DNA from: Dioscorea cayenensis subsp. rotundata
Lineage: Eukaryota; Streptophyta; Magnoliopsida; Dioscoreales; Dioscoreaceae
Direction of reading: 5' to 3'
DNA: 64,000 nucleotides
NCBI RefSeq assembly: GCF_009730915.1
Contig: NC_052476.1
Coordinates: forward strand, 20,317,257-20,381,256
Positions within the stretch are counted from its first letter, which is position 1, and each line of letters starts with the position of its first letter. Below, in pieces: positions 5,251 through 64,000 of this stretch. Below the pieces are notes generated by a model that saw only the letters and a list, made by a program, of their open reading frames with translations, ran no database searches and was not told the DNA's origin. Position numbers and translations under genes: made by a program.

Positions 5251-5295
5251 TACATCTCACAAAAGTCGATCCTAAAACCCTAAGCATAGTGGACC

Positions 5296-7773
5296 ATGGC
5301 TGGTGGCAAAGATGAAAAGGACGGTGGCTCGTCCAGCAAGAAAAGATCCCCGTATGAATTGTCTCTTAATGATAATCCAGGAATCCTAATTATTCATGTG
5401 CAATTGAAAGACGACAATTATGATGAATGGTCAAAAGCCATTCGAGTCTCTCTCCGATCAAAGAAGAAGCTGGGATTCTTGGACGGAGCAATCACGTGTC
5501 CTGATCCAGATTCTGATGATTTAGAAGATTGGTACGCGGTCAATTCAATGCTTGTATCATGGATCTTCAATACAATTGAACCAACGTTGAGATCCGCTAT
5601 TTCATACAAGGAGAACATTTTTGATCTGTGGCTGGATATCAGAGAACGTTTTGGTGTCACAAACGGACCACGTATCCAGCAACTCAAGGCTGAGTTGAGT
5701 GAGTGTAGACAAGGTGCAAAATCTATTTCTGATTACTATGGGAGGATGAAAAAGATCTGGGAAAACTTGGATGAATGTGATCCTTATCCAACTTGTAGAT
5801 GTGGGAAGTGCACGTGTGATCTGGCCAAAGAATTTGACAAACGAAAAGAAGATGAGAAGGTACACCAATTCCTCATGGGTCTCAACAACATCTTATATGG
5901 AACGGTACGGTCTAACCTTCTTGCTGCGGATCCTCTTCCCAATATGAATAAAGTGTACTCAACATTGATGAGAAAAGAACATATGAGAACGGCCTCAAGC
6001 AGCAAAGATGACAAAGGCGAAATCATGGGCTTTGCTGTTCAAGCAGGTCGTGGTCGTGGTGAAGCACGACTAGAACCAAAAGACCCTAACAAATATTGCA
6101 CTCACTGTAAGCGAACATGGCATGCAGTAGAAAATTGCTTTCAATTAACAGGTTATCCGGAGTGGTGGGGTGACCGTCCAAGAGGTTCTGGACGTGGTAC
6201 ACATAGACATGGTGGAGCAGGTTTTGTTGCTGGTCGTGGCCGTGGAGGTGGTGTATGGGCTAATGTGGCAGCAACACCACCCGTCACGAGTTCTTCCCAA
6301 GGAGCTGTTAGTGAGCAAACTGGCTTTCCTGGAGTGAGCGATGAGCAGTGGAAGTGGCTCCAACATTTTTTTGACTCAAAGAATCCTAAAATGACTAGTA
6401 AAATAAATACTCCATGGTGGATACTTGATACAGGAGCTTCTCACCATATGACATGCGATATGTCTCTAATGACGAATTTGCATGATATTTCGGCAAGCCC
6501 AGTGGGAATGCCGAATGGTGAACATACTACAGCTACAAAGGAAGGCGTGGTGATCCTGGACAAACATATTACATTGTCCAATGTTTTATATGTTCCGAAT
6601 TTGACTTGCAATCTTATATCCATCTCACAACTGATTTCTGAAAATAATTGCATAGTTCAGTTCTCTAATGCTATTTGTGTTATTCAGGACCGCACTTCGA
6701 GGATGCTGATTGGTGCGGGTGAACTACGAGGGGGTCTCTACTACTTTCGTGGATTGACATTTGCACAAGCAATGAAGATGAATAGTGCGAGCTCCTATGA
6801 ATTGTGGCACAGGAGACTGGGACATCCTTCTGCAAAGATTGTAGAATTGCTTTCTAATGTTACTTTCATTAAGTCTAGTGTTGTGACGAATAAGATTTGT
6901 GATATATGCATTCGTGCGAAACAATCCAGAGAGTGGTTTCCAGTTAGTGATAATAAAGCTCATGATTTGTTTGAACTCATTCATTATGATCTATGGGGAC
7001 CATATTGTACTCCATCTGCTTGTGGTGCAAAGTATTTCTTAACTATTGTGGATGATTACTCACGTGGTGTTTGGATTTTCCTTCTATGTGATAAAACAGA
7101 GGTGGCTCAAACTATAAGACAATTCTTTACTTTGGTGGAACGACAGTTTAACAAGAAAGTTAAAATTATTCGCAGTGATAATGGGACTGAATTCATACCT
7201 ATGAAACCTTATTTTCTTGACAATGGGATTGTTTATGAGACATCTTGTACAGGAACCCCCCAACAAAATGGGCGTGTTGAACGCAAACATCAACATATAT
7301 TGAATGTTGGGTGGGCTTTAATGTTTCAAGCAAATCTACCAATCCAATTTTGGGGTGAGTGCATTTTAGCCGCCGGTTATCTTATCAATCGCACTCCATC
7401 TCTTGTATTGGATGGCAAAACTCCTTTTGAGCTTATTTATGGTGCACCACCTTCCTATAATCATTTTCGTACATTTGGGTGTTTATGTTATGTGCATAAC
7501 CAAAGAAGCAAGGGGGATAAGTTTGCAAGTCGAAGTCGTCGATGTGTGTTTGTCGGATATCCTTATGGCAAAAAAGGGTGGTATGTGTATGATTTGGATA
7601 CAAATGAGTATTTTATATCCCGAGATGTTGTTTTCTCTGAAAATGAATTTCCTTACTCACATGCAACAACTGCATCTAATAGTGCATTGGAAAATACTAC
7701 AACATGTGATAATAGCAATGAGTTTGTTGTTTCCACTCTTGATGAGCATGGTGCACCCTGTTGGAGATGGTGA
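5296..7773 (+). pseudogene. Copia gag-protease-integrase reading frame, truncated before reverse transcriptase
   Basis: This is an open frame of 825 codons. A gag domain of the plant copia type covers about residues 20-250. A zinc knuckle of CX2CX4HX4C spacing begins near residue 268. The aspartic protease active site (DTGA) is near residue 378. The integrase HHCC region (WHRRLGH ... CDIC) is near 503-540, and the integrase catalytic core, including RSDNGTEF, at about 565-665. The frame stops in the linker after integrase and the rest of pol lies in other frames. The polyprotein would make virus-like particles and integrate cDNA, but it lacks a usable reverse transcriptase. It may still supply gag or integrase in trans. 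Confidence 0.9.
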
Positions 7774-9620
7774 TTTCGACTACGTAAAACAAATGGTACA
7801 CAAGGGAGCAATGAACAAGCTACTATTGAAGATAATTCCTCGCGACATGGGGGCATAATTCACTCGTGATTCTAAAAAGTGATGATGAGCTTCTTGGAAG
7901 AGGACATCGTGCCAAGCAACGATCTGTCTTACTTCGTGATTTTGTTAGTCATACTGTCCAAAAATTGAGCCCCTCCTCTTCTAGTTCACTCAATCCAAGA
8001 TCATCCTCAGGTGCGCCTTATCCTATAGCACGTTATATGAACTGTGATAAGTTTTCCATGCAACATCGATCGTTCTTGGCAGCTATTACTACAGGTGTTG
8101 AGCCCATCACTTACTCTGAAGCAGTTAAACATGCATAGTGGCGTGATGCTATGCAAAAAGAAATGCAAGCTCTTGAGGACAATGGAACTTGGAGTCTTGA
8201 ACCACTTCCTCTTGGAATGAAACCAGTTGGATGTAAGTGGGTCTTTTCGGATCAAATATAATTCCGATGGCACCATTGAGCGCCACAAAGCTCGCTTGGT
8301 TATCTTTTGGCAACAAACAAATTGAAGGAATCGATTACAATGAAACTTTCGCCTCCCGTGGCTAAAATGACCACAGTCAGCGTGTTTTTTTCTTGCCGCT
8401 GCACCTGTCCGTGAATCGGCATATTCATCGGATGGATGTTCACAACGCTTTTTCTTCATGGTGACTTGGCGAGACCGCTTTATATGCGTCCCTCCTCCCC
8501 GGCTTTTTCTCCCTCACAACCTGGTCTTGTGTGTCGCCTCCGCAAATCACTGTATGGTCTTAAGCAAGCTCCTCGTTGTTGGTTTGCGAAGCTGGAGGGA
8601 GCCTTGCGTGAGTACGGTTTTGTTCAGTCTTACACTGATTATTCTCTTTTCACATTGCATCAAGGATCCGTTCAATTGCATGTTCTGGTATATGTTAATG
8701 ATTTAATTATATCTGGTAATGACCTTGAAGTTATTCAGGATTTTAAATCTTATCTTAGTGCTTACTTCCATATGAAGGATCTTGGTGTTCTCAAGTATTT
8801 TCTTGGCCTTGAGGTGGCTCGGAATTCTGATGGCATATATTTGTGTCAACGTAAATACGCGTTGGATATAATCTCAGAGGCCGGTCTTTTAGGCGCAAAG
8901 CCTGTTAGTATTCCTCTTGATCAAAATCATAATTTGGCTTTATCCACTAGTTCATTCCTTGATAATCCTGAGTGTTATAGACGCTTGGTTGGGCGTCTCA
9001 TTTATTTGTCAGTTACACGTCCTGATCTTTCTTATTCTGTTCATGTGTTGGCTCAATTCCTACAACAACCTAGACTTGAGCATTGGGAGGCAGCACTTCG
9101 TGTTGTTCGCTATCTGAAGGGACATCCGGGCCAAGGTATTTTACTTCGTGCCGACTCTGATTTATGGCTCTCAGGATGGTGTGATTCTGACTGGGCTCGC
9201 CGCCTGCTAACCCGACGCTCACTCACCCGGTTGGTTTGTTCTTCTTGGTCACTCTCCTATTTCATGGAAAACTAAGAAGCAACATACGGTCTCTCGTTCC
9301 TTCGCCGAAGCTGAGTATCGTTCAATGGCAACAACCACATGTGAATTGAAATGGTTAAAAGCACTCGCTCTTAGTCTTGAGTTTATCATTCTCAACCCAT
9401 GCGCCTTCATTGTGATAGTCAAGCGACCTTACACATTCGTCGCTAATCCGCTCTTTCACGAGCGCACTAAAACATATCGAAGTAGATTGTCATTTTGTTC
9501 GGGATGAGATTCAACGTGGTCACATCCAGCCCAACCCTATGTGTCCACGCTCACGCAACTTGCGTACATTTTTTTACTAAGGCCTTAGGCAAGTCTCAAT
9601 TTGATTACCTTTCTTATGCA
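7774..9620 (+). pseudogene. Decayed reverse transcriptase/RNase H half of copia pol
   Basis: Reverse transcriptase similarity starts after an in-frame TAG at 8136-8138 and continues across several frame changes between about 8240 and 8450. A longer open piece (about 8450-9275) carries the RT core, ending in the region that normally precedes RNase H. The catalytic YVDD box reads YVND (Asn codon 8697-8699), which removes one of the two metal-binding aspartates. RNase H similarity is again broken into different frames from about 9200 onward. This half is clearly non-functional as written. Confidence 0.9.
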
Positions 9621-42188: not shown

Positions 42189-45050
42189 TCACCTTAGCGA
42201 TGCCAGACCGAGAGAGGCTCGAAGCCTGTTGGCTTCGGCAATCTCTGGATTGGAATGGTCGGTACTGTCACTCTTCTTCTCCTTTCCTTTCTTCTTCTTT
42301 GGTTGTTCCTCCCTGGAATTGCTGTCGTCGGCTAGGCGCCTATGTGGGCTAATGCTGCCACAAGCATGACTCTTGCGGTGGTTAATATCATCTCGGTGCC
42401 GTTCCCTGCGATCGTTGCTTCTGCTCCTTGAACGGTTTCTTCGACGAGCACGGTCCCTGTCCCTTCTATGCCTATCCCAACCTTCCCATTCTCTATCTCG
42501 ATCCCTGTCTCGGACATAATCCCTTTCATCTCTGAGTCGGTAGCAGTCCCTGTCCAGGTCTCTGTACCTATCTTGGTCATGATCACTATCTCTTTCTTGT
42601 CCCCTTGCATACTCACGATCATAGTCTTTGTCCCGAACCCGGTCCCTATCCCTGTAAAGGATGAGATAAGATATGAAATGCACATGAATGCACTGTTGAC
42701 ACTTATGAAGTAATCAAAGATTCTTATTTCAAATGGGCATGTAAAGTTGTAAACAGGGACCAAACAAGTTATTATGAACAATTAAACTCATTGAGTAAAA
42801 AATTAAAAAATCACAGTAAGAAATTTAGAATTGGACATGGCAACAAATGGTTGAAATACTGTAAATAATCTAAAAAACTAAGAACCATCATCACCAGTCC
42901 TCATGCCCTGTTTAGTTTCATGTGTCACTATGACACTGATCTTAGGTTGACTGATAACCAATGACAAATCATATTTTCAAAACATAACAATCCATGATAC
43001 TTGAATTCATGACCATTTTTAGTCATGCAGTAAAAGAACATGAGAAAAATGCAGTAGGCAGTAAAATCAATATAAATTATCTGAGTTGTCTGACTCATCA
43101 TACTTCGTCAGCACAGAGAAACCTGGCAGAGCCATCACTGAATCACTTTAGGAAGCAAATCTTTCTGCCAATGGCTCTTGAAATTTACATGCCATGGCAG
43201 TAACACACATGGAATATCTAGCAAAATCAACGATTCAAAACAAATGCTTCCAAAACGATCAACATGCGAGCCTAAGGGCGCCTATTAGCAGTCCATTCAA
43301 AAAACCTAAAGCAAAGAAATCCTAACCTCATGGGACCCGATAAGTCTAAGCCACTCCAGAAGTTTTCAGCACATGATGTGTCATAAGTTTAAGAGAAGAC
43401 ACAAGAGCTACTTGTGAAGTGGAAGACCAAACAAAATGAAATGAAGAACAAGTGAAACATACCAAACAGAAATTGGATGAGGAAAGTGAAAACAATAGAA
43501 CTGCCCCAAAATACCGTTCAATAGTAATAAAATGTTGGGTCATATGATATACCTGCATTGTTTAGCACGCTTCCTATATCTTTCCCCATCCCTCCCAGGA
43601 CTTCTTCCACGATAATCCTGTTACGAAGCAATACTCAGGTTAAATAAGACTACTTTAAAAAAAAATAATGAAGTATCAAGAGAAGAAATGAGATTAGCTT
43701 CCAACCTTCTCATGAGTCTCATCCTCTAAAGCTGGCTGTTCTTCCTCTTCTTTCTCATCTTGTTTTTCAAAATCCCCATCTAAAACACTTTGCCAGGGTT
43801 CCAACACACCAGCTGCCTCAAGAGGCCACCTGAAATATTGAACAAAATGAGACAAGACATTCAGGATATCATAAAATGTGTATACAAGCAGTACTGATAA
43901 AGTAAAGAAAAAGGTTACTTGGGCTATAACTCAAAACATAGTGTATCAAATCAAAGGGAGATAATCCAACAAACTAGATCAATTCATGCACTGTCATTCT
44001 ATATCTAGTAACCTTACAAGTTGAAAAATTTGTTGAATCAAAGACCATTAGTGTCACGCAATGAGATCAAAATAACCACAAGGGAAAGGAAAAAGCCACC
44101 TCTTCCGGATGCGGGGTAAAGCAATATCACCAGAGTGATCCATTGTAAGTAGTTCATCGATCACCTCATCCACATGAGTCAATGAAAAACCTAAAACAAA
44201 AGAAACGACAAATGCCAAGCAACCAATAATTAACAAATAATCAAGTGGATCATGGCAAAGCTAAAAACAGAAGAGTAGAGTATAAAATCTCACTTCCATC
44301 TGACATTTTCCTCCTAAGCTTCCGATTGTCATTATAAAGCGGCCAGAGGTAACTGTGCACATCAGTGACAGTCCCAGTCAATCGCATGTAAAAAGCCCCA
44401 AGAACTCGCACATATCTGCAATGCATAGTCAAACTCTGTCAGACAAGGAATACTACTGATCAACGCAACAGGATACCAATGAAGTAAAAAATTAAAAAAA
44501 CATGGTTTTTCCAATGAACACACACACAAAAATATATATATATATATATATATTCAGAGGATTAATCGTTCATCCAATGTTCACAAAAACAAAAATCTAA
44601 ACTTTTTCACAGAAATACCTTTCTTGCTGCAAATCCGAAATTGATTCCGAAAACTCAAACTTTAATGAGGAAATTGGATTAAAAACATAGTATGTGAGTA
44701 TGTCCAATGAATTCATAAAAAAGATAAGAAGAAACGAGCTAGGGTTTCAAAGAATCATACTTATAATGCGTGTTCAAAATAAACTCGGCGACGATGTCCT
44801 TGGGCGGCTGGATCTGGAGCATCTTCATAACAAGACACATGAATGGCGTCGGCCGGCGATTGCCTCCATAAGTGCCTCCCAAATGATCAAGCTCCATCGC
44901 CTTGTCGACCAGCGTCTCCGCCGTCAGCCCGAAGCACTGCTCCTTCCAGAAAGTACTCTCATAAATCTTCGATCGCACAATCTTCTCCACAAGATTCTGA
45001 GGGTTCGTCCCGTGTATGCTCTTCGCCAGAGGATCCGTCCTGTTCGCCAT
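42189..45050 (-). CDS. PRP38A: Pre-mRNA-splicing factor PRP38A
   Basis: PRP38 is a tri-snRNP/B-complex protein needed for spliceosome activation. Exons in transcript order on the minus strand: 45050-44761, 44415-44294, 44190-44100, 43829-43706, 43617-43553, 42651-42189. All have GT-AG borders and agreeing phases, totalling 1155 nt, 384 aa. Residues 1-180 are the PRP38 domain, starting MANRTDPLAKSIHGTNPQ, with WKEQCFGLTAETLVDKAMEL, YVRVLGAFYMRLTG and FSLTHVDEVIDELLT. Then an acidic linker (EKEEEEQPALEDE) and an arginine/aspartate/serine-rich tail (RDRDR..., RSRSRSN) from about residue 232, ending GLASLR. I chose the inner ATG (MANRTDP) over an in-frame one six codons upstream because it is the conserved family start. 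No defect seen. It lies between LEC14B debris and the intact LEC14B gene. Confidence 0.95.
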
Positions 45051-45136
45051 CCCTCTCCCCCTCCACAACCCTAACCCTAATTCCCTCCTTCTCCGATCCC
45101 CCGCCTGTTTAATAAATTTTTTAACCTAAAACTCCG

Positions 45137-48055: not shown

Positions 48056-48495
48056 TGTTTTAATGGAGATTAGGAAGTGGATGTGTTTTTCTTGATGAAT
48101 TAGTTCTTTACATTGTTCCAAGTTGATATCTTTTTAATGATTCTTTTGTGTTAATGTTTGATGGCAATTTTCATATGATGATCTTTGAATCTTTTGAATG
48201 AACTGAGATTGAGAACTTCACTGACATCATTACTGTGAGTTTTGGGGGATATAGATTGAAGTGATTGATTCTCAAGTTTGTAGTGATTGAGAAGGTCTTG
48301 GAGTATGACAATTCTATTGTTTTGATTTGCAAGCCCTTTATTATTGTTGATTTGTTTGTGAACAATTGGATTATGTTTAAGAATTTCTGTATATATTTTA
48401 TGGTTTTGCCACTACTAATGATAAAATTCTGTGAATCAATTGGATGCACGGTGAGATGTTTGTAGAGTGATGAGTGTGTTGTGATTGGTTCCAAG
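47640..48495 (+). promoter_or_regulatory. Promoter and leader region of the intact LEC14B gene
   Basis: GGCCCATGGGCTG near 47685-47697 and AGCCCACATG near 47702-47711 carry the GGCCCA-type motif often found in promoters of plant housekeeping genes. Similar sequence occurs upstream of copy 1 at about 32280-32330. A (TA)n run is near 48021-48040. The leader may contain an intron between about 47898 and 48490, which I could not confirm. Confidence 0.45.
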
Positions 48496-51323
48496 ATGCG
48501 CGAAAGGAAGCTAAGAAGTGATGGTGATTGTTCTACAAAAAATCCCCATGAAGAATGTTTTCCTGTTGATCATGAGATCACTCATCTCACTAAAGTTAGA
48601 TCAGAACCAAGTGTGAAGGCTCGCAAAGTTATCCATCCTTCAGGGAAAATGCCTATTCCAACAATTAAGATGTTGTATGGAAGGGAAGCTAATTATACCG
48701 GGAGGGGGAGGTTCTCTTTAGCTGATTGTTCTCATGTCCTCGGCCGATACTTGCCTGTCAACGGTCCATGGTTTGTTGACAGGATGGATAGTAGAGCATA
48801 TGTATCACAGTTCTCTGCTGATGGTTCGCTTTTGGTTGGTGGATTTCAGGTATTATTTTGCTCAATTCTTGTAATGATGAAAGTTTTTCTTTTTAAAGAT
48901 TGTGATTGATGTTTTCACTGACAATGGAATTCTGAATAGGGAAGCCGCATCAAAATATATGATGTTGATAACGGGTGGGCATTACGCAAAGACATTGTTG
49001 CTAAAAGTTTGCGATGGACGATAACAGATACAACTCTTTCACCGGATCAGCGGTTTCTTGTTAGTTGTTTACTCATATAAATGATCATCTTTCATATATA
49101 TTTTCTTAAACCCTAGTCTTCATCTCAGGGTTCACTGAAAACTGCTTGGAGTAAACATTTGAATAATATGGACTCAGGGTTGCTAAAATTTTGACTTTCA
49201 GAAATCATTAGATCATTTTGTTGCGGGGAAGAAAAAAAGATAGTTCGACTTTCTTATGGACATAGAAAATTTTAAGACGCGTTGTTTTAAGCATGCATTC
49301 AAACTATATATTTATCAATATACGGTCATAGTTGTGGCTTTGCTAAATAGAATTCATGCTCAGTTGGCGAAATGCTCAAGTTTCACAAAACTAGAATTTC
49401 TCATCGGATTTCTTATATTGCATGAATGCTACCTATACTGCCTTTCAAATTCATTAGGGTTGACTAAATGCATGATGAATGAGCATTAAATTTGAGCATC
49501 AACCTAACAAACCAGTTCAGTATCAGGGGGGTTCTCTTTTCATCAATTTCATTTCATTTTTTATTGATTTACTATTAACTTAGATACTTTCATACTGAAT
49601 CAATTGCAGGTTTACGCCAGTATGTCACCGGTGCTCCATATTGTAAATGTGGGAACTGCTGCAACAGAATCATATGCTAATATTAATGTAGGTTCTCAAT
49701 ATTCTGCCGTAACTTGTTTGATTAATACTGTTGGCTTGTTTAACTGGCCTTTTTGTCGTATATCAAATTCAAATTTTATTGAATGCTGGTGATATCATTT
49801 TAGATCCTACTTACGTAATGCAGGAAATCCATGAAGGTCTAGTGTTGTCTACTGATGATGATGAGGACTATTCAGTGGGGATTTTTTCTGTGAAATTCTC
49901 AACTGATGGTAGAGAGCTTGTTGCTGGAAGCAGTGATGATTCGATATATATGTATGACTTGGAAGCGAATAAAGTGACATCACGCATATTAGCTCATACC
50001 GTATGACTTCTTATCCTTAAATGAGTATTTCTTTTGTGGCTTAAGGCACTGCATTTTTCCCCTCATTTTTTTGATTCTTTAATAAAAAATCATGATACAT
50101 CATAAAGGAATTTAGGATTGTGAAATGTTAAAATGATTTACAATTTATTTGAATAAGGGAATCCTTAATGCTATTCCCTAAGTAATGTTCAATAAATTTT
50201 TTGTCAAATTTTCCTTTTCTTTTACAGTCCGATGTGAACACAGTCACTTTCGCTGATGAAACCGGTAACATCATATATTCAGGAAGTGATGATAGCCTAT
50301 GCAAGGTATATTCCTGCTTTCATCGTCTCGTCCCACATACATGATTTTATTTGATTTTAAATTTGAATTTGTTCTACATCATTTCTGCTTATATTGTGAA
50401 TTGACTTGCTGGATCTTGGATATGTTTTCTTCTGTTCAAAGGTTTGGGACCGACGCTGCCTTAGGGAAAGAGGAAGACCGGCGGGGATCTTGGCAGGTCA
50501 TGTAGAAGGAATTACATTCATCGATAGCCGGAAAGATGGATGGTATTTTATTTCCAATGGTAAAGATCAAACAATCAAACTTTGGGACATCCGGAAAATG
50601 ACCTCCAAAGACAAGTGGTATGTCTTGTAGTTTTTTTTTTTTTAATCTTGAATTTTATTTTGTGTTCATGCAATGCAAGTCCAAGCACTGCTTTATCTTG
50701 TCATCTAAAATTCATGGGATTGCAGGCGCAGACGAAAAAGGTTGCACTGGGATTATCGATGGATGGAGTATCCGTTTGAAGCTAGGAGAATGAAACACCC
50801 GAATGATATGTCATTAGCTACATATCAAGGTCATTCAGTCTTGCAAACCTTAATACGCTGCTACTTCTCTCCTCAGTACAGGTTAAGCTTAATGTTTACA
50901 TGTTTCATTGACTGTATTTTTGCTGTTGATACTGACAAATTAGCTGACAAATTAGCTTTCTTTATTTCAGCACTGGGCAGAAGTATATCTACACCGGATC
51001 GAATGATAAATGCGTATATATATTTGATGTGGTATGCGATCAAAACATAATGTTTTCTCGTATTTTTATCAATATTGGGTTGAATTGAGCTGAGGTAATA
51101 TGTTTGTTTGATGATGTTTTAGGTAACTGGAGCACAAGTAGCAAAACTAGCAGGTCATAGCTCGACGGTTCGAGATTGTAGCTGGCACCCGTATTATCCG
51201 ACGCTGATCACCTCGTCTTGGGATTGCTTGATTGCACGATGGGAGTTCTCGGGAAATGATCCTGACAATATCTTGTTGACGAAAACAGGCCGGCGGAATC
51301 GTGCTCGTTTATATGCCGATTAA
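48496..51323 (+). CDS. LEC14B: LEC14B / DCAF11-type WD40-repeat protein
   Basis: Proteins of this family (plant LEC14B, animal DCAF11/WDR23) are WD40 substrate receptors for CUL4-DDB1 ubiquitin ligases. The specific plant substrate is not known from sequence. Exons: 48496-48849, 48940-49059, 49610-49687, 49824-50000, 50228-50305, 50442-50617, 50726-50881, 50971-51031, 51123-51323. All GT-AG with agreeing phases, 466 aa. Visible WD40 landmarks are YVSQFSADGSLL, WTITDTTLSPDQRFL, VKFSTDGRELVAGSSDDSIY, VYDL-like MYDLEANK, GNIIYSGSDDSLCKVWDRR, HVEGITFIDSRKDGWYFISN, IKLWDIRK, YIYTGSNDKC and RDCSWHPYYP, ending RARLYAD. I chose ATG 48496. No earlier ATG continues the frame. It is the only intact member of a local array (copies at 31-36.5 and 36.5-42 kb are dead). 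Confidence 0.93.
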
Positions 51324-52291
51324 AGTGCATTATCTGACGACAAATTTACATGTTCAATGTATCAAATACGGTTGAATTTTGTACATATTTCATGTGGAAT
51401 AACTTTATTTTGAATACTGCCGCATGAAAATCAATCTAATTGTCTAAGATGGTTGTTTTGTATGAATTTCTAAGAGTATATGAAATATATGCATGTTATG
51501 ATATTTTGTGGTGTATATATACATGCATATGTATAAATATCAGAAAATATACGTGTTTCATAGTTAAATTTGTTTTTCATTTTTAATACTTTAAAATAAA
51601 ATTAAATTACAAAATAAAAGTTTCTAAAAACTTTTTTATTCCATAAAAGATAAGATGTGAGCATAGCAAATCAATTATGACAAGAATAAAAGATGACTTT
51701 AAGTTTTATAAATTAAAATAGAAAAAATAGAAAAAAAAATTTAAAAGATTTTCTTTTGTTTTGTATTTGTTTTCCAAATCTCTTGCATTTAAGAGAGATT
51801 TACATTCACAATTCTCTTAAAATGGGTTAATAGGTGCTTTGTCTGGGATAAATAAAAATTAGTAAAATTTGAAGGGGTGTAACTATTGATTAAAAACTAT
51901 CCATATTTATCTCAAGCAAATTCAGGCATACACTAAGCCATAAATTTTTTACTTATTTTATCCTTCTTGAATACAATGAATATGAAATAAATTCCCTCCA
52001 AATTAATTGGACAAAAATTAATTTACTAATTGCACCAAAAAATTGGATGTGTGCCACATAGCAAAAAAAAAATTAAAAACCAATGATTCATATAAAACCT
52101 TTATTGTCAATATTTTATTTGATGCAATGCACTTGGCAAAATTTAATCCAAATTCAATGATTTGCATCAAACTTATCCATAAATAATGTATTTACTATTT
52201 TTTTTGCAAAAGATTATGATTTAAATCAGTGTTATGATCACTCATTTCATAGTGCAAGAACAAAGCAGAGGAGGTTTTTGGTTGGCAAAAG
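51324..52291. other. Spacer between LEC14B and the nucleoside hydrolase gene
   Basis: AT-rich sequence without a recognised gene. The first 250 bp are the LEC14B 3' flank, which is repeated at 45545-45690. The rest is the presumed nucleoside hydrolase promoter. Confidence 0.5.
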
Positions 52292-55200
52292 ATGGAGCAA
52301 TGGAGATTGTTGCTTTTCTTGTTTGTTGCTTTTGTCGGCTTTTTCGGGGAGGTAGATGCAAAACCTCGGCGGATTCTTTTCGATACTGATGTTAATTCGG
52401 ATGATATCTATGCCCTTATTTATTTTCTGAAGCAGAATCGATCAGAAATTGAAATTGAGGTGAACTCTTACTTCTTATATCTACTAATAATATTGTAATA
52501 GTTCATCCTTAACATTTACTATATTAAATATTTTGTTGATTTTGATCTTTGATTGCCGAAGGAATGATAATTGGTTCTGATTTGCACTTCATTATTTTCA
52601 AAATAAAAGTCGGTTCAAATTCAATATTGTATAGTTTTGACATGTCGAAGCATTCTTTATTATACTGACATTAATGTCAATATTACATATGTTTAATCCA
52701 ATATCAATGTTAACATGAAATTTTATCAGTTATACTTACCGTATCAGATATGTTGTCAGTTTTAATATTCTTAAATCGGCAAAAGAATGAAATCAATGCA
52801 TGTTTGAAGTATTATATCGTTCGATAATCTTGTTCTAATCTGAGATATTTATGTGCTCAGGCAATAGTTTATGCCAAATTAATGTCAGTTTTCATCTTAA
52901 ATTTTTTATTTACTGTAAAATGTTGAAATACCATGTAGTTCAAACATCAAACCATAATTTCTGATCTTCATCAGAAAGCTTGAAGAATTTGGTTGATATT
53001 AACCTTTGATGATATCTATATATTGATTTATTTCTTGAAGCAAAATTGATCAGAAATCAATGTTAACTCTTATCGATACCACCGATATTAATTCTTATGA
53101 TATTTATGCACTTTAAAATTTTGGTTTTTGAAAACAAAAAACAAATATAATTTGAACATAAATAATGATTTCACATAATACAGTGAAATTCCTCCATTTT
53201 AGGCAATTAGTATTAGCGCAAATGCATTTCAGTAATGCCGGACATGCAGTTAATCACATATATGACGTTCTGCACATGATGGGTCGTGACGATATTTCTG
53301 TTGGAGTTGGAGGCGAAGGCGGTATATTACCAAATGGTACTATACTCGCCAATGTCGGAGGTTATCTCCCTTTAATAGAACAGGTATTGACATTTTTATC
53401 AGTCACTAAGCTCTAAAATTCAATTCGGAAATTACTGACGTTTAAGTGAAAATCAGGACATGTCAACAACAGGTAATTGTAGATATCGGCAAGCTATATA
53501 TCGAGGTGAAGGTGGTTTGCTAAGTGTCGACACGAATTACGGCTTAAGAAGAAAATTCCTTCCAATGGTAAAGAGTTAAAAAAATCTAACACTAAGCACT
53601 AAATGTTGTAATGCAGTAAATTCTGTTTGTTAATGTAAAGTGTGAATTCAGGGAGACCGACATTACATACCTCTTCGCCAGCCTACAGCACAAAACGTGA
53701 TGATCAATGCAATATCTGCCGGACCGATAACTGTGTTTCTCAGTGGATCACATACTAATTTGGCCATTTTTCTCATGACTCATCCACATTTGAAGCAAAA
53801 CATTGAGCATATATATGTGATGGGAGGTGGTGTTCGATCAAAAAGCCCCTTTGGATGCTGTCCAGAGCATTCTGCCACTTCTTGTCAGCCTAGTCAGTTT
53901 TGCGGTGATACGGGCAATCTATATACTGGTCAAGCTAGTAATCCATATGCCGAATTCAACATATTCACTGATCCATTTGCCGCTTATCAGGTTTTCTTCC
54001 ACATATTTGATCCATCTGTTTTTGAATTTCAACAGTAACTTTCTATTGTGTGTTTTGTTGCAGGTGTTTCATTCTGGTATTCCGTTGACTCTTGTTCCAT
54101 TGGATGCAACAAACACAATACCAATAAATAAGGACTTCTTCACAGCATTTCAACAACATCGAAGCACCTACGAAGCAGAATACTGTTTCCAGATGCTGAA
54201 CATTATCCGCGATACTTGGTTTGATGACTCTTTTTATGAGGTTCTGATCTTCCAGTTTTGTTCTGTTTCTTTTTTTTCTTTTGTTGCACGATAGGGTCAT
54301 ATTTGGGAAAATTCATGCAGAGTTACTTCATGTGGGACTCATTTGCTGCTGGTGTCGCTGTATCAAGCATGAAAAATCAACATTGTGAAGATGAGAATGA
54401 ATTTGCTGAAATGGAGTATATGAACTTAACAGTAGTTACTTCGAACAAACCTCATGGTTTGTATGATGGTTCAAATCCATTTTTTGACAGTCGTGCTACG
54501 CCTAAATTTGGATTGCAGAAAAATGGTGTGCATAGTGGTCATGTGCAGACTGAACTTCATGATCCATTTTGCCGTGTTGATGGAATAGAGAAAGGAATTT
54601 GTCAGGTAGAAACTTGCCTGTAAAAGAAGTTTAAAGTTCAGTTTGCATTTGAAATTTCCATGAAATTCATATCTTACCGATAACAATATAACGTCAGGAT
54701 GGATATACTAAAGAAGAGGATGGAGCAGGTGTGCGAGTTCTTGTTGCAACTAAAGCAAAGCTGAATCCTGACAAACAAAGCATCCTTGATCGAAAATTCT
54801 ACATTAGTTTTTTGAATGTAAGTTCACTAAAAATATGTGCAATCTATAAACTCTAAATTACAGCAGTAAAACAAACATTTCAGGTTTGTTATTCTTGCTG
54901 ACATTGGTAAATGCAGGCTTTAAACCAACCTCAACAATCTGCACAGTTTAATCGTACATCCCAACTTCCTTACCATCAGGAAATTCTCCGCAAACCAAGT
55001 TATAAACACAAAGTTTTCGGCAAACCTGTTGTGTTTGACATGGATATGAGTGTAGGAGATCTAGTTGCTCTTATCTACCTTCTAAAAGTACCGGTAGAAG
55101 AAATAAACATCAAGGTAAGTCAAACTGATCGTGGTCTTTTGTCAACATGTCAGTAGACACAGAAATCAAGATTAATTTTGACTGTTGCTTTTGAGTAGGG

Positions 55201-56431
55201 AATTTTAGTCAATGGTAATGGATGGGCAAATGCAGCAACAATAGACATTGTCTATGATGTTCTGCACATGATGGGCCGGGATGATATTCCAGTCGGTCTT
55301 GGAAGTTTTACCGCACTAGGAACACCGTTTCTCAATTGTAAGTATGTCAACGCTATCCCTCATGGCTCAGGAGGACTCATTGACTCTGATACACTCTTCG
55401 GTCTTGCTCACAATTTACAACAAAGTCCTAGAAGGTATCGTCATTTTGTATCTGCAACAAAATTTTCATTTCATGCATTAGCATGCAATTTTCCCAAATG
55501 TCATTACTTGGATTCAGGTACACTGTTGAAAATGATAGACAACCATCTGCCATGGAAGTTTGGCAGATGATTTCAAGATCAATTGATCAAAATAATACCA
55601 TAAATATACTCACAAATGGGCCATTGACAAACATAGCGAACATAATTCTTACCGATGAGAATGCGAGTTCAATTATTCAGGTCAGTTATGTTCCTTATTT
55701 GAGTAAACACTGCACAATGTGCAAAGATTATATAATCATTTCACATGCAGAGAATATATATAGTCGGTGGGCATATTAGTGAGGATCAGGAGAAGGGAAA
55801 TGTCTTCACCAACCCTTCAAATGAGTGTGCAGAATTCAATATGTTTCTTGATCCCTTAGCCGCAAAGACAGTAGTAGAATCTGAGCTCGATGTCACATTA
55901 ATCCCTCTTGATGCTCAGCGCAAAGTGACTTCTTTTGGTTTGGTCTTAAAACACTTGCAGCAGAAACTGAAGACATCCGAATCAGTGTTTGTGCATCATC
56001 TGCTCTCAAGATTGCATAATTTACAGAAAAGACATAAAGCATACAATCATATGGTAAGTGATAAGACATTAAACACTCAAAGTTCAAAAGATTCAACAAT
56101 CAAACATTGTTGTGAGCTCTCTGGTTTTTCTGTTTAACAGGATATATTTTTGGGAGAAATCCTTGGCGCTGTGTTCATGGTTGCTAGTGATCATCTAAAT
56201 CCAATAATCAAAGCCAAGCCAGTGAATGTCCTCGCAGGTAATATCAACACAGATGGACAAATAGTTGTCAATGAAGGACAGGGGAAAATAATTAATGCAT
56301 TGGAAAGTTTGGATTCTGAAGCATACTACAATAATTTCGCAAAATTACTCGGGGAGAAAAAACAATCTGCCGTAATCAGTAGCTTTGCTGAACAAAAGAG
56401 AATGTGGAGGATGCCACCTAATGCTTCCTAA
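52292..56431 (+). CDS. NSH3: Two-domain secreted nucleoside hydrolase (NSH3 type) with a one-base frame break in exon 2
   Basis: Plant NSH3 proteins are apoplastic nucleosidases that cleave inosine/adenosine-type nucleosides to base and ribose. Residues 1-23 form a signal peptide. The first IU-nucleoside-hydrolase domain starts with DTDVNSDD (31-38), the calcium/ribose site. The second starts from exon 8 with FDMDMSVGD, a degenerate site usual in this family's second domain. Exons: 52292-52459, 53203-53383, 53457-53567, 53652-53990, 54064-54240, 54321-54605, 54698-54817, 54917-55114, 55199-55434, 55518-55680, 55751-56053, 56141-56431; about 856 aa. Eleven exons fit together. Exon 2 has 181 nt, one too many. 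It opens as AISISANAF and only continues as [14 protein letters not shown] after skipping the C at 53230. Its tail exons are repeated as fragments downstream. Confidence 0.9.
52980..53115 (+). repeat. Decayed echo of exon 1 inside intron 1 of the nucleoside hydrolase
   Basis: 'gatgatatctatatattgatttatttcttgaagcaaaattgatcagaaat' resembles the end of exon 1 ('gatgatatctatgcccttatttattttctgaagcagaatcgatcagaaat'). It is followed by a second partial echo ('cgataccaccgatattaattcttatgatatttatgca'). The copies lie in the intron and carry stops. Confidence 0.6.
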
Positions 56432-56708
56432 TATGTACTTTCATCAGTTTAAGTCTCACGAAAATTAAAAACATCCACCTTGGTAAAATACTGAATATTT
56501 TCTGACAATATTGAATGTCAGTAGTTTTAATGTCAATTGAGTTTCAGTATCAAACCATGCCAAGTCAATTTTGGTCAGGAACCAATTATTTTCAGTAATA
56601 ATGCTGATGATTGAATGACATGCATACATGGATTTATCACAGATGTCATCATACAGCAAAATAAGACGTTTATTTCATTACTTTCTTCATGCCATGCTGA
56701 CAGCACCA

Positions 56709-58396
56709 TCAAATGATGGAGCCTCCAGCAGCTACAATGTCATCCTCAAGCTATGTAGATCACCCAACACAGCTAAAATTTAGTAAATTTGAACTTATAA
56801 TGATGAAACTCTGTGCAAGTAAGAGATATTGCACCTTCTGCATGTCCTTGATCTTGACCATTAAACGCAGGCACTCAACTTTGAGTCTATGAAGATACAG
56901 CACACACCTGCGGATTTAGTATTATGTTAAGACAGTGATGATTTTGAGTTAAATTTCTCTACGTTCAAAACTTAGAAAATTAGGATTTACCCGTCTTTGT
57001 CAACAGCCTTGCAGTAGTAATCAGGCAAAGTAACACACATATTCACCATTTGGGGGGCCCCACAGCTGCGCAAAGGAAAGGTTATGTATGAATACCCCAT
57101 GGAAACCAACAATAACATAAGAACTCTATAGATCAAGAAAATCATGTTTTCTTTTATGAGAGTTGTTATTTGAATCTAATTTCTTTTCTGGCAGTCTGAA
57201 ATTTCAATTAGACACAAATAAACAAAAAAGCAAAAACATCTTTGATTCTTTTAAAGTTTAATCTGCATACTGAAAATGATACTTAAAGCTATGATGAGCA
57301 GAGACAGAAGATTCTTCTTAAGGAATTCACAAGTACTTATCTGACGCATTTGTTTTGCTTGTCAAGCTTTACTTAATTTATATTTCACTACATTCAAAAG
57401 AATTACAACTAGAATTTATGATATTCTAAACACATTTTTTCTGGTAACAAATGCCAAAAACATATTTAGTAAATGAAGTGGATTCAATATTTTTATCATG
57501 TGACAAGCATAAGAAAATAAAGAGAAACATTGAATAAATTATGTATGTGAGAGGCTTTGGTTTTTCTCCTATGAATAAATTACCAACATCAAATATCCAG
57601 GTAAGAAAAGTTGAAAATTTTAATGAAGAAAACTTATGGGAACTAAACTCTAGCATTCTTCATATTCTCAAGATTCACACAATGGTATGAATAGCTAAAT
57701 CTATGACCATAGAAAGAAACGGCAAGAAAAATGATAATTGCACTTATACGAATAAAATAAAATTTAACAAAACAGCCCCTCCAAGTAAAGTTCTCCCACA
57801 CATTACCGAGGCTTTCACGCTAGAATAAATAGAAAATAATAATAATAATGATTTAAGATCTAAAACCGCAGCATTTTCCGTAATGTCCCAAGATTTTGGA
57901 TCAGTATAAATTCGCAAATAATCAAGGACTACAGAAAAAGAAGTAACACGTGCTGCATTATTCCTGACAGTGCTGGCCTCCAGCTGATAAACAAGCTCAT
58001 CAAGCATATGAAAGTTCACAATCTCTTTATCAATTCACCAATAAACAATGAAACACAACACTAGCAAATGGTCATGAAATGTGCAAACTTGCATACCTAA
58101 CTCAAAGCAAAACAGACATTTCATTCAGTCTTTTCTCTGCCTCTTTAAGTAAAGAGTTATTAGCCCCCGAGCAAAACCAAGTCCATCAGCATACAGGAGA
58201 CCAAACCGCTCACCCAGGATGTGCTGTTATTGCAAATGCAACAAATCAAGCTGAAATTTCACATAAAACATAAAACTAAGAAAATGGAAATATGTAAGAG
58301 ATTCCATGTTGCATCAATATACTAAATGATTACCTCATGGGCAAGGGATGATTTTAGATCTGCTAAGCTTCTCTTCAACTCTACAACTGAAGCCAT
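56709..58396 (-). pseudogene. Full-length HPt-like gene with Tyr at the phospho-His position, broken
   Basis: Six exon-like blocks match the intact HPt gene at 60361-61805: start MASVVELKRSLADLKSSLAHE (58396-58334), exon 2 at about 58220-58095, exon 3 at about 58012-57966, exon 4 at about 57066-56998, exon 5 at about 56910-56840, and a last block LEDDIVAAGGSII (56750-56709). The HPt helix reads NFHMLDELVYQLEAS: Tyr (codon 57987-57989) replaces the phospho-His and the KGS motif is EAS. Defects: exon 2 lacks one base at about the 'CTTTACTTAAAG' site and runs into TGA. The exon 2 donor and exon 3 acceptor are unrecognisable. The exon 3 donor reads GA instead of GT. Probably not functional. Confidence 0.8.
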
Positions 58397-58442
58397 TTTT
58401 TCTGTTTGTGTATTGAGAGTGTGTGTTTCTATATAGCTGTGA

Positions 58443-58716
58443 GGAAATGTTTCTAGGAGAACTTCTTAACACTCCGTTCATGGTTGAGACTGATCATCTG
58501 AATCCAATAATTAAAGCAAATCCTGCGAATGCCCTTGCACGTAATATCGAGACAAAAAGGCAGACAGTTGTCGATGAATGGCATGGGAAGATAGCAAATG
58601 CCTTGGAAAGTTCGAATTCTGAAGCATATTACAGTATTTTGCAAATTCACTTGTGATCAAGAAGCAATGCGCAACGATTTGGCAACTTCAATGAGGAAAA
58701 GAAAGTGCTAATTTTA
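58443..58716 (+). pseudogene. Fragment of the nucleoside hydrolase last exon (first of four fragments)
   Basis: Matches exon 12 of the gene at 52292-56431: FLGELLNTPFMVETDHLNPI and later KIANALESSNSEAYY are clear. The frame is open from about 58443 to a stop at 58656 and similarity fades near 58716. No upstream exons or promoter of the parent are present, so it is not a gene. Confidence 0.85.
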
Positions 58717-58869
58717 GTTCTTCTCAACTAAACAAAAAAGCTACCCTAAGGAATCAGAGTTCTCCATTACTTGCCAAATATATCTGTTTCGATACAATTA
58801 GCAGGTCATCAACAACCACCAAAAATAAAAAAAATATAAAAAAAAAAGTGATAGAATGGTGTATTATAC

Positions 58870-59260
58870 CTGTCTTGCCCTTCAGCTTACGAACATGCAT
58901 GTTGAGATTATGATAGTTCATGGCCTCTTAATCAGTTCACCAATAATCAACAAAAAACAAAAATAAATTAACCGATAGACTCTGGCATAAAATCATGGCA
59001 CACAATTTTCCATAACTAACCACCAATTTATATTTAATTTTCTCATCCTCTCTATGGTAAATATTAAATATAAACGAAACCTGCTATTCCCACTTAGGAT
59101 GTTCTTTCATTGCAAAACCACAAAGCAAGTTAAATTGTCACATCCAACACTGAACTGAAAGATGTGGCAACTCAATTTTGCATCCCTCTACTAAAGGACG
59201 ATCATCTGAGCAAGGAATTGATGCAAACTTTCTGAGCTGCTCTTCAAGAGCAGAAGCCAT
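58870..59260 (-). pseudogene. 5' fragment of an HPt-like gene with Arg at the phospho-His position
   Basis: The first exon begins MASALEEQLRKFAS (ATG at 59260). The donor after exon 1 is mutated (AT for GT). Exon 2 is reduced to scraps around 59000-59100. Exon 3 retains YHNLNMHVRKLKGK, in which Arg (codon 58889-58891) takes the place of the phospho-His, followed by a normal GTATAA donor. Exons 4-6 are absent: the next sequence downstream in its direction is the nucleoside hydrolase fragment. Confidence 0.7.
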
Positions 59261-59514
59261 TTATATGCTTGTGTGCTTAAATTGTATGCCTTCGTGGGTC
59301 CTTATATAACTGAGGGAAATAATTTCAAAATGTATAATAAGCACATTCTTTGAAATTAATCTGGAAAGAACACTGTGTGGCATGGGAATGCAACAGTTAC
59401 GAGGTTTTTACATTGTTCAATATTTCTCTTAATTCTTAGCAGCAAACGCAAGGGCAAAGTCCGAGCATGAGGTCACCCAAATATGACATAGAACTAACCT
59501 TTTTTTCTTGAGCC

Positions 59515-60005
59515 TTTAGCAAGTATTTCATAATGCAACTAAAGAAGTTGCAGCAGAAACTTAAGACAACCAAGACAATGTTCAAGCATCACATGCTCTC
59601 AAGATTGCTTATATTAAAGATACGACATAAACCATAGAATCATAAGGCAGACAATGACACAGAGAGGTTTGGATTCAGAACATTCAACCATGGCATATTG
59701 TCGTAAGTACTGTGTTTTTGTTTACAGGATATGATTTTTGAAGTAATCCTCGCGAATGTTTTCATGGCCAACTGAAAAATCTAAATCCAATAACCAAAGC
59801 AAAAGCTCATGAATATCCTCACAGGTAAATATTGACACCAATGGACAGATTGTTTCCAAAGAAGGACATGAGAAGTAGTCCATGTATTGGAAAGTTCAGA
59901 TTTGACAGTAGTAGTTTCCCGAAATTACTCAATGTAAAGAAACAGTTTGCAGTAATTGGCAGTTTTGCGAGCAAAAGACAATGTAGAGGAGACCACCTGA
60001 AAGCT
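59515..60005 (+). pseudogene. Fragment of nucleoside hydrolase exons 11-12 (second fragment)
   Basis: 59515-59650 matches the end of exon 11 ('ttgcagcagaaacttaagac...tgctctcaagattgc') and 59728-60005 matches exon 12. The intron between them is also recognisable ('tttacag' acceptor), so the copy is genomic rather than retroposed. Stops and indels are present, for example 'ggacatgagaagtag' where the parent reads GGACAGGGGAAA. Confidence 0.8.
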
Positions 60006-60360
60006 CTCAAACAGGTACCTATTATAGTCTTTCTCAACATTTGGAAAAAGGAAAAAAGAAAAAATAAACAAAACTTTCACCTTTCTGCAAGTATATCAAA
60101 TGTTTTTTGATCCAATCAGAAGAATAATCAGGGGGTTTATTTTTCGCACGTATTTCCATGGAGGAGTTTCATGGTTAGTTAACTGAATGCACACACCAAA
60201 GCAAGGCAATTCTGATAAAGGAAACTAGTTTATTCTTATTAATTATGTTGATGGACACCGAACAATAGATCATGCATACAAAGGAATAGCACTTGTGTAT
60301 GCATACAACAAAGCAACACCTTTATTTTGCTAGTTTCCTGAAGCCACACTAAGGGCACCA

Positions 60361-61805
60361 TCAAATAGAGCCTCCAGCAGCAATGATTTCATTCTCCAGC
60401 TAATAAAAACAAAACATAGCAAAGACTTGGTAAGATTCCAATGTATAAACAAGAAGGTTCATGCAAGGAAGAGATTGAATACCTTACGGATGCTTTCAAT
60501 CTTGCTCATTAGAAGCTGGTACTCTTCTTTGACATGGTTGAGAGAGACCACACACCTGCACTTCCAGCAAAACATGATAATAAGTAATGATGATTTGAGT
60601 TTAATATTTCTGCTAAAAAAATGAGAAAGACACATGTTTAAAACCAAGAAACATAGGATGTACCCTTGTTTGTTAGAAGCATCACAGTAGGTGGCCATGG
60701 TCAAACAAGCATCGGCCAAACGGGCAGCTCCAATGCTGTGCACAGGAAAAGTAATGCAGGATTAGCACATAGAAACCAACTATATATTTAGAAAATCTTC
60801 ACACATTACAAAAGTCAGGTTCTTTATTTGGGTTTTTTAAATGAATGTGATTTTTTTCCTGTCAGTATTAAGTTTCAAGTCGATTCAAATGAGGACAAAA
60901 TCTACTATTTTTTCCTCTTAGTATGAAGTTTCTTTAAGAAATTTACAAGTATTAACTTAATACAATTGTATTTTTCGCCATCTAATAATCCCAACAAAAT
61001 AAAATGTTGAGGAATTTAATGAAGCAAAATTCTAAGAACTTAAATTGAAGTGCTTTGGCATAGTCTCAAGATTTTCATGCCGATATAAATTAGGAAAACA
61101 TCTATAACAAGAGAAAGAAACGACAAGCAGAATAAAACAAAATGTAACGAAACAGTCATCTGAGGTCCCCACTACTGTCCTGAGAATTACAGGTTGGAAA
61201 AAATTACTTAGTCCTCATAGATCAAACAAACTTAATAAATCAGGTTTCTAAAGAATCAGTATCATAAAAACTGTCCCAGGTACTGTGTCCATATAAAGTA
61301 ACAAGTCATCAATAACTATGAAAAAAGAACTGATAGGTGGTGGTGTATTATACATAAGGCCGCTTCCCTTCAGACGATTAATAACCACCTCGAGCATATG
61401 AAAGTTCACAATCTCTTGGTCCCTTCATTGATAAAAAATGAAAACACAATAAGTTACATAATGATGGGCTCTAGAATATGATTATGGAATACAGAAATTT
61501 GCATAACTGACTTACAGCCTCGCAGTCAGTTCAGTCAGTGATTTCTCAGCCTCAGAATGGAAAAGAGTTATCGTTTCTGAAGCAAAATCATATCCTTCCT
61601 CGTACAGTTGATCGAACACCTCATTCAGGATTTTCTGTCATTGCAAAACAAGAAATCAAGTTGAAGTTTTGTGACAGACATAAAACAAGGAAAAATCATG
61701 ATGGAAGAAACTCCATTTTGGATCCCTATACTAAAGGATCACCTCCCGAGCAATGGAATACTTCAGATCCGCAAAGCTCCTCTTCAACTCCTGGACAGAA
61801 GCCAT
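60361..61805 (-). CDS. Pseudo-HPt (AHP6-like) histidine-phosphotransfer-type protein with Asn instead of the phospho-His
   Basis: HPt proteins carry phosphate from cytokinin receptor kinases to nuclear response regulators. Versions lacking the His, such as Arabidopsis AHP6 (Asn), inhibit the relay. Exons on the minus strand: 61805-61743, 61634-61516, 61422-61354, 60735-60664, 60555-60483, 60399-60361. All GT-AG, phases agree, 435 nt, 144 aa. Family landmarks: EVFDQLYEEGYDFASETITL, EAEKSLTELTARLDQEIVNF, then VVINRLKGSG where family members have VHQLKGSS; Asn76 (codon 61377-61379) aligns with the phospho-His. Then IGAARLADACL, YCDASNKQGCVVSLNHVKEE and the C-terminal LENEIIAAGGSI. The frame is fully open, unlike its three neighbours. 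Whether it is expressed is unknown. Confidence 0.82.
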
Positions 61806-62000
61806 TAGCTATGGTTGTGTGCTTAAGGTGTATGCCTTCATCTTTATATAACTGGAAGAAAGGACTTCAATATAGAGAATTAATTAATCATTAATATTAA
61901 AATGGAAAGACAGCAATGTAATCACGAGGACACATTTAATGCTTTCTATTCATGGAATTCAACCATTGAACCTTGTTGTATGTTCTTTGTTTCCTTTTGG

Positions 62001-62145
62001 AGAATATGTTTTTGGGAGAAAACCTAGGCATGGTTTTCATGCTTGAGAGTAATCATCTAAATCCAAAATTTTAAAACAAATCCTGTGAATGTCCTTGCAA
62101 GTAATATCAACACCATGAGCAGATTGTTGTTATTTGATGAGCAAA
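62001..62145 (+). pseudogene. Fragment of the nucleoside hydrolase last exon (third fragment)
   Basis: 'atgtttttgggagaaaacctaggcatggttttcatg' and 'catctaaatcca...cctgtgaatgtccttgcaagtaatatcaacac' match the start of exon 12. Only the first half is present, with a stop and indels. It abuts sequence related to intron 3 of the HPt-like genes (about 62150-62250, compare 57470-57540). Confidence 0.75.
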
Positions 62146-62795
62146 TCCTTAAAATGAATTTGATTCAATATTTTAATCATGTGGCAAGAATAAAAAGGAA
62201 AATGAGAAGCACTGAATAGATTATCAGGGGAGATCCAGTTAGCATGTAAAATTTCCAAGTTTTTCACCCCAGAAAAATTTAGCACCATCAAATGATCACT
62301 ATATAGACAAATATGCCAAGAAAATTAGTGAAGCAGAAACCTCAGAGCTTAATTGAAGCGCTCTGTCATAGCCCAAGAGGTACAAACCAGTGCATTTGAG
62401 CAAGTGATCTATGACCGTTGAAAGAAACGACAAACAAAATGGTGATCACGTCTGTACAAACAAAACAAATTAATGAAACAGCTAAGTAGAATTCTCCCAC
62501 ATAGTACCAAGGTTTCCATGCCTAAATAAATGGGAACAAATAATGAGACTGTCTGTAGTATTATGACAACCTTAAGGAAAGAGACATGTGTATCTATAAC
62601 CCAAGTTTTCCGTTACAGTCCTGAGAATTTCAGATCAGAATAATTTAACAAATCATGAATAACTAAATATACGAACAAAAAAGACATCCTAAAGTATCAG
62701 AATTCTCCATTACTGTACAAGACCTCTGCATTGGTATAGATTAGAAAATTATCAACAACAACCGAAAAAAGAACTGGTGTAATGGTGAATTATAC

Positions 62796-63254
62796 CTGCA
62801 TTATTGTCCTTAAGTTGATGAGTACATGTCAAGCTTATCAGGTCATGATAGTTCACAATCTCTTTCTCACTTCACCAAAAATCAGAGGAAAAAAAAAACA
62901 AATTAAGCAACATATCAACACAGATGATCATTAGTACAGAAAACTAGCATGACCAGCTCACAGCTTCACAGTTGATGGAGCCAGTGTTTTCGCAGCTTAT
63001 ATGTGGCAAGGGGTTACCCGTACCCCAGCAAAACCATGCGACGCAAGATAACAGATTGCTCACTCAGGATGAGCAGTCATTGCATAAACCACAAATAAAG
63101 GCAACACTTTATTTCAAACATCTAACTAAGAAAAACAAAAGGTGCAACAGTGCAAGAGATTCCATTTTCAGTTCTTATACTAAACAATCATATCCTAGAC
63201 AAGCAGTGACTTGAAGTCAGCTAAGCTTCTGTTCAACTCAAGGGTAGAAGCCAT
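62796..63254 (-). pseudogene. 5' fragment of an HPt-like gene that still has a His at the phospho site
   Basis: Exon 1 begins MASTLELNRSLADFKSLL and hits TAG where the others read the exon end. Exon 2 is heavily altered (about 62960-63090). Exon 3 reads EIVNYHDLISLTCTHQLKD. HQLK matches the canonical HPt motif (His codon 62818-62820), but two residues are inserted before it and the following GSS is lost. Exons 4-6 are absent. Non-functional. Confidence 0.7.
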
Positions 63255-63371
63255 GTCCTATGGTAGTATGCAAGAATGTATGCATTGGGGGTGTAGAGTT
63301 CAAAAGCAGAATTACTATATCAATTTCAATTAAAATTAAATTGGAAAGACAACAGTCGTGAGGAAACGCAA

Positions 63372-63567
63372 GAGTTATGAAGTTCTCTCAGAGTTCGATA
63401 TGTTTCCAGATCCTTCAGCAGTGAAGGCAGTGATAGAATCCAAGCTTCTGACCACACTAATCCCTCTTGATGATCAGCACAAAATGACTTCAACTGAAGA
63501 GAGCCCAGTTTCTATTCAAGCATCATCAGCTCTTAAAGTTGCTTATTTTAAAGAAAAGATATAAAAC
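63372..63567 (+). pseudogene. Fragment of nucleoside hydrolase exon 11 (fourth fragment), cut by a TRIM
   Basis: FDMFPDPSAVKAVIESKL, followed by TLIPLDDQHKMTS, matches the middle of exon 11 ([29 protein letters not shown] in the parent). It is open to 63564. Similarity ends exactly where the LTR of the adjacent TRIM begins, near the exon-11 end. Confidence 0.8.
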
Positions 63568-64000
63568 TGTTAGATTTTATATTTTTGGTACTAGAGAGTC
63601 TATATAGAGCTTTTATATGAGCTTAGGGTCTTACACCAAAAAGTCTCAAGACTTAGTGGCTCAACCCTCTATACCTATATATAAACCCATTACACTTCTA
63701 TTACACAACCGATGCTGGTACTATATTTCCAACACTCTCCTCAAGTTCAACTCATGGGGTCGAACTTGCACTGCACTCTGTACACCGTAGTCTGCTTTAC
63801 TCGTGACTCAGTACACTACTTTGTGTCTCAGAGGTCCTACACACATGGAGTCCTATTTTAACTTGACTTGTGTTCCTTCTCGAACCTCAGAGGTCTTTTA
63901 CTAGATCCCACTATAACTATCGTGATCATTTTTCCCGCAGCTCGATACCATGTTAGATTTTATATTTTTCGATCTAAGATCGCCTTATACGACTTTATAT
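63568..64000 (-). mobile_element. TRIM-like miniature LTR element, minus orientation, cut by the window end
   Basis: A 167-bp LTR-like unit (63568-63734, TGTTAG...CCAACA) is followed by about 216 bp of non-coding sequence. A second TGTTAGATTTTATATTTTT begins at 63951 and runs off the window. Reading the minus strand, TGGTATCGAGCTG (63950-63938) just inside the right LTR fits a methionine-tRNA primer site, and GAGGAGAG just inside the left LTR fits a polypurine tract. An internal region this short defines a terminal-repeat retrotransposon in miniature. The two LTR starts already differ after 19 bases, so the insertion is not recent. Confidence 0.75.

Follow-up and report, generated by a model that had tools for sequence, protein, structure and literature searches.

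Near the end of the window (the whole 64-kb stretch of DNA that was analysed), and continuing just beyond it, the 3' end of a nucleoside hydrolase gene and a plant HPt gene occur side by side in five head-to-tail units, with the hydrolase sequence on the plus strand and the HPt gene on the minus strand. HPt genes A to D lie inside the window and E lies beyond it. The array most probably, at roughly three chances in four, arose through an old tandem duplication of a divergent HPt gene that took the tail of the hydrolase along as a passenger; its copies would now mostly be pseudogenes, with one of them, unit C, a candidate pseudo-HPt of the AHP6 kind. In favour of this reading, all the tail matches reported from the genome (5 of 5) fall within the array, A, C and E share a gap, C is complete, and the divergence between units is similar throughout.

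Layout of the array and its hydrolase tails

The order is hydrolase gene (T0), HPt A, T1, HPt B, T2, HPt C, T3, HPt D, T4, HPt E (Table 1), and the array starts with the last two exons of the hydrolase gene at about 55.75-56.43 kb. Comparison of the region 51.5-64 kb with itself by BLAST (E<=1e-4) gave off-diagonal matches from unit to unit, with identities of 64-80% and a best E of 8e-55; four families of direct repeats were also seen. The shared order of units that an earlier note on this DNA had described is borne out by these matches; likewise, self-BLAST, alignment and tblastn recover its four minus-strand HPt units and its plus-strand hydrolase tails in the places where it had put them. 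A convergent pair, in which the hydrolase 3' end faces the HPt 3' end, does recur as a unit and has been trimmed differently in each copy, as that note had it. Its count of four units and four fragments is right inside the window and too low for the array, as a fifth HPt gene, with Arg, and the rest of T4 lie outside.

No match to the parent tail or to unit C was found in positions 1-50000 of the window (E<=1e-3), and past 66.8 kb no further match was found within 30 kb of added chromosome (E<=1e-4 for DNA, E<=1 for the protein of C). When 311 bases of the hydrolase tail were searched against the 584-Mb genome at E<=10, at least five matches were obtained, those reported being the five in the array; counts from genome searches with this tail are lower bounds.

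Table 1. Features of the array and its parent hydrolase gene; positions are counted from the first base of the window, except in the first row.
Feature	Position	Strand	Description
Region searched (64-kb window)	C6:20317257-20381256		Genome of 584 Mb
Nucleoside hydrolase gene, parent of the tails	52253..56434	+	Two hydrolase-like halves; last two exons = T0
HPt unit A	56709..58396	-	Exons 58334-58396, 58106-58223, 57964-58032, 56991-57065, 56835-56907, 56709-56750; Tyr codon
Hydrolase tail T1	58441..58707	+	Last exon only, internal stop; tblastn E=1.7e-24; DNA 77% over 211
HPt unit B	58870..59260	-	Exons 1-3 only: 59203-59260, 59024-59103, 58870-58934; Arg codon
Hydrolase tail T2	59527..60020	+	Last two exons, internal stops; DNA 70.8% over 496; tblastn pieces with stops
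HPt unit C	60361..61805	-	Exons 61743-61805, 61516-61634, 61354-61422, 60664-60735, 60483-60555, 60361-60399; Asn
Hydrolase tail T3	61893..62192	+	Part of last exon and part of preceding stretch; DNA 75% over 179; tblastn pieces
HPt unit D	62796..63254	-	Exons 1-3 only: 63192-63254, 62962-63073, 62796-62869; His codon
Hydrolase tail T4, first part	63388..63567	+	tblastn and DNA matches
Small LTR-flanked element in T4	63568..64000, on to 64113 outside the window (L001:113)	-	546 bases
HPt unit E	64.8-66.7 kb, just outside the window	-	Arg codon

The tails differ in extent, and T1 starts 44 bases upstream of the ATG of unit A. T4 is split by the LTR-flanked insertion, and its remainder lies outside the window at 64114-64485 (L001:114-485). 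The terminal repeats of the inserted element measure 163 and 167 bases and agree in 149 of 168 aligned columns; a 5-base duplication, AAAAC, is present at both ends, and the first repeat is followed by TGGTATC, presumably a primer-site-like motif. On these features the element looks like a TRIM.

In the parent gene, the last exon was placed by eye from after an AG at about 56136 to a stop near 56431, with the preceding exon ending at about 56052. A Pfam scan of four ORF pieces of the gene found PF01156, the inosine-uridine nucleoside hydrolase family, in two of them (53646-54038, E=1.1e-18; 55736-56137, E=4.4e-14) and no Pfam match at E<=1 in the other two; membership of this family is thus read from ORF pieces. 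Like nucleoside hydrolases of the NSH3 type, which consist of two tandem halves, the gene has two hydrolase-like halves, and it may be of this type rather than a sister gene. NSH3 is described as an extracellular nucleosidase in part of PMC4688390.

The upstream neighbour of the hydrolase is a WD40 gene at 48466-51323 of the window (plus strand), with PF00400 on one exon (E=1.9e-7). It is, we assume, LEC14B-like, and would be useful as a synteny anchor for the array. Elsewhere in the window, ORFs at 42192-45125 (minus strand) resemble by eye a PRP38-like splicing factor whose long tail is rich in Arg and Asp, and long ORFs of 827 and 286 aa at 5290-9272 (plus strand) resemble, also by eye, a Copia-type retrotransposon polyprotein.

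Structure of the HPt units

The five units were put in register by DNA alignment, introns included. Six exons are present in A, C and E; B and D stop within the third intron, the homology of D in that intron extending to about 62150. Unit C has a clean frame (435 coding bases including the stop, 144 aa) and GT-AG at its five introns, and no defect was seen in either frame or splice sites. Its protein matches the Pfam profile PF01627 (Hpt) with E=3.8e-7 and 30.7 bits, above the cut-off of 24.6, and in the comparison with solved structures its residues 7-144 match AHP1 best (E=3.7e-25; yeast YPD1, E=0.08). This wide margin of plant over fungal HPts points to a plant genome. The earlier note had looked to an HPt profile for all four units in the window: this is what was found for C, and A, B and D are instead tied in by their DNA alignment to C and by tblastn with the C protein, which reaches D through exon 1 only (E=0.66) and B through exon 3 only (E=0.37). 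Unit E, read through its defects, matches solved plant HPts with E=1.4e-23. C belongs to the plant HPt (AHP) family by the Hpt profile, and both C and the defect-read E do so by a structure match over nearly the whole length.

The remaining units are damaged in various ways. At aligned places in A, exon 2 is one base short, the donors of exons 2 and 3 are not GT and the acceptor of exon 3 is not AG. B has a shortened exon 1 and a partly deleted exon 2, and D has broken frames, has lost the exon 1 donor and the exon 2 acceptor, and carries a short insertion near the phospho-site in exon 3. In E, a base is missing from exon 2 and exon 5 is not preceded by AG; an earlier AG in intron 1, if used, might bring E back into frame while adding nine residues. 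With these lesions A, B and D are pseudogenes, and E also has disabling defects. In A, B, C and E, but not in D, a TATATA lies 39-48 bases 5' of the start codon.

The phospho-site codons of A to E are TAT, CGT, AAT, CAT and CGT, that is Tyr, Arg, Asn, His and Arg; the residues for A to D are those that had been read earlier. A single base change separates each of TAT, AAT and CGT from CAT. The phospho-acceptor His of an active HPt is found only in D, with its broken frame, the other four units having non-His residues. Aligned in place, AHP1 reads HQLKGSS and unit C reads NRLKGSG, and C has the Asn for His in an otherwise intact chain that marks a pseudo-HPt of the AHP6 kind. The ancestral unit would have carried His, retained as CAT in D, and the His would have been lost from copies after duplication. 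If CAT is indeed ancestral, at least three losses of the His would be needed, the Arg of B and E going back to one common loss or to two separate ones.

A scan of the whole genome with Pfam PF01627 gave 0 matches and missed C too, its single exons being short, so that the scan is uninformative on the number of HPt genes. The C protein gave at least seven matches in the genome at E<=10, five of them in C itself and the others on C14 (E=0.014) and C9 (E=2.64); this search missed A, B, D and E, and the count is a lower bound. The weak C14 match (G000:C14:9521659-9521871, plus strand) covers several exon positions in one intronless piece, with one stop and a His at the expected place (VHCPKG), and is perhaps a processed relative or copy. 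Nothing HPt-like was seen on inspection of the C9 match.

Divergence, selection and origin

Over all aligned columns, K2P ranges from 0.45 to 0.54 among the ten pairs of units, from which it follows that the array is old. At a substitution rate of 6.5e-9 per site and year, a K of about 0.5 corresponds to some 38 million years, and to more in slow-evolving trees; no age is claimed here. The branching of units and of tails is nearly star-like (support values of 0.82 and 0.115 for the units, 0.72 and 0.06 for the tails), and the order of duplication events is therefore unreadable; unequal crossing-over, which had been proposed as the mechanism, gains nothing from such trees. The branch of T0 is short, at 0.10 against 0.26-0.44 for the four tail copies, as expected if constraint was kept on the parent only. 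A, C and E are without four residues that all four of the solved plant HPts in the comparison have. In a tree of eight rows A, C and E group together with support of 94/92, just below the program's starred level. For the descent of the array from one divergent HPt, these four PDB sequences served as the yardstick.

In four of the ten pairs the exons are more alike than the introns, by 0.01-0.04 in identity; in the other six they are less alike. That the excess never goes beyond 0.04 counts against the preferred reading, as it would fit weak or no constraint, C included. Third codon positions are more divergent than first and second positions in A-C, A-E and C-E, and dN/dS in these pairs, from rows hand-edited at frame breaks, is 0.49 (bootstrap 0.31-0.77), 0.43 (0.25-0.71) and 0.41 (0.21-0.67), respectively. 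Such values hint at past selection; the pairs include dead copies, and the ratios thus cannot show constraint on C now. The likeness of exons and introns, taken with dN/dS, is compatible with selection that was weak and acted for part of the time, or with fast-evolving genes dying one by one.

The most likely cause of the array is ordinary tandem duplication of a gene and part of its neighbour, with later decay. One divergent plant HPt gene would originally have stood tail-to-tail with the hydrolase gene, and at a remote time the stretch from the last hydrolase exons to the HPt promoter would have undergone repeated tandem duplication, with the hydrolase tails as passengers in the repeat. The HPt gene is the sole complete gene in the repeat, and selection on it could therefore have persisted; A and E would have died late. 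On this account C, if expressed, would most likely be AHP6-like, binding phosphorelay partners without carrying phosphate and so damping cytokinin signalling.

The present function of C is the subject of two rival readings, neither of which excludes an origin by tandem duplication. According to one, a serious contender at somewhat less than even odds, the whole array is dead and C is a pseudogene that is still open by chance. Exons as divergent as introns, and the breakage of four of the five copies, are what it predicts; it has more difficulty with the open frame and full set of splice sites in C, and with a dN/dS below 1 in A-C, A-E and C-E. Chance survival was also infrequent in a simulation of point changes only, where the frame was still open in 67 of 2000 cases after 22% random change and in 378 of 2000 after 10%. 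The other reading, which we consider improbable, is that of a decoy HPt family, in which several members diversified under selection, each losing His in its own manner, so as to tune cytokinin signalling. Pseudo-HPts are known inhibitors on the AHP6 model, as parts of PMC4662812 and PMC5975490 describe, and both the differing site residues (Tyr, Arg, Asn, Arg) and a dN/dS of 0.41-0.49 are consistent with such a family, but with A, B, D and E now broken one copy at most could act, and exon and intron divergence are alike. It is equally doubtful that the array served as a lineage-specific nursery of decoy HPts, in which the phospho-His was freed, the rest of A, C and E (Tyr, Asn, Arg) was selected, and one survivor inhibits cytokinin signalling locally.

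Far less probable than any of these is a functional link between HPt and nucleosidase, with the convergent tails giving antisense or read-through control. The convergent order is indeed kept across units, yet hitch-hiking accounts for it without function, and the tails are truncated or contain stops, and vary in extent by unit. The coupling of a phosphorelay to a nucleosidase suggested in the earlier note is accordingly rejected as unsupported, since broken tails fit passengers.

Comparison with known HPts

Like AHP6 and other pseudo-HPts with Asn for His, unit C has Asn at the phospho-site, and it aligns with AHP1 over nearly the whole chain. The likeness to AHP6 consists of this Asn and known biology, the comparison having been made with the four PDB HPts, all of which have four residues that the array proteins lack. 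The cluster had been described as one of pseudo-receivers, a misnomer for HPt proteins, which are phosphotransmitters and not receivers. It had also been called unusual, which is too strong, as clustered non-canonical HPts are already published. Part of PMC6518804 describes HPTs that are non-canonical in having Arg, Ile or Leu in place of His; its HPT-X clade has Arg in Medicago, Ile in Vitis and either Arg or Leu in other legumes, and the two Medicago members lie in a cluster on chromosome 2, with weak expression. Set beside this published description, the array likewise combines a non-canonical residue with local clustering. It differs in that each unit lies beside a hydrolase tail, whereas section 6 of PMC6518804 mentions no such neighbour for HPT-X. 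Part of PMC5975490 describes HPT copies lying near one another in banana and puts the origins of pseudo-HPTs at two or more, and it is suggested in part of PMC12785465 that membrane-type HPts without function may have turned into pseudogenes. A limited search of the open-access literature returned no title dealing with HPt arrays that have hydrolase tails.

The array is a readable fossil of a signalling gene multiplied together with a fragment of its neighbour, and among its sister copies the phospho-His position is taken by three other residues. If C works, it would be a further non-canonical HPt to set against AHP6; otherwise, the array warns annotators against counting its copies as HPt or hydrolase genes.
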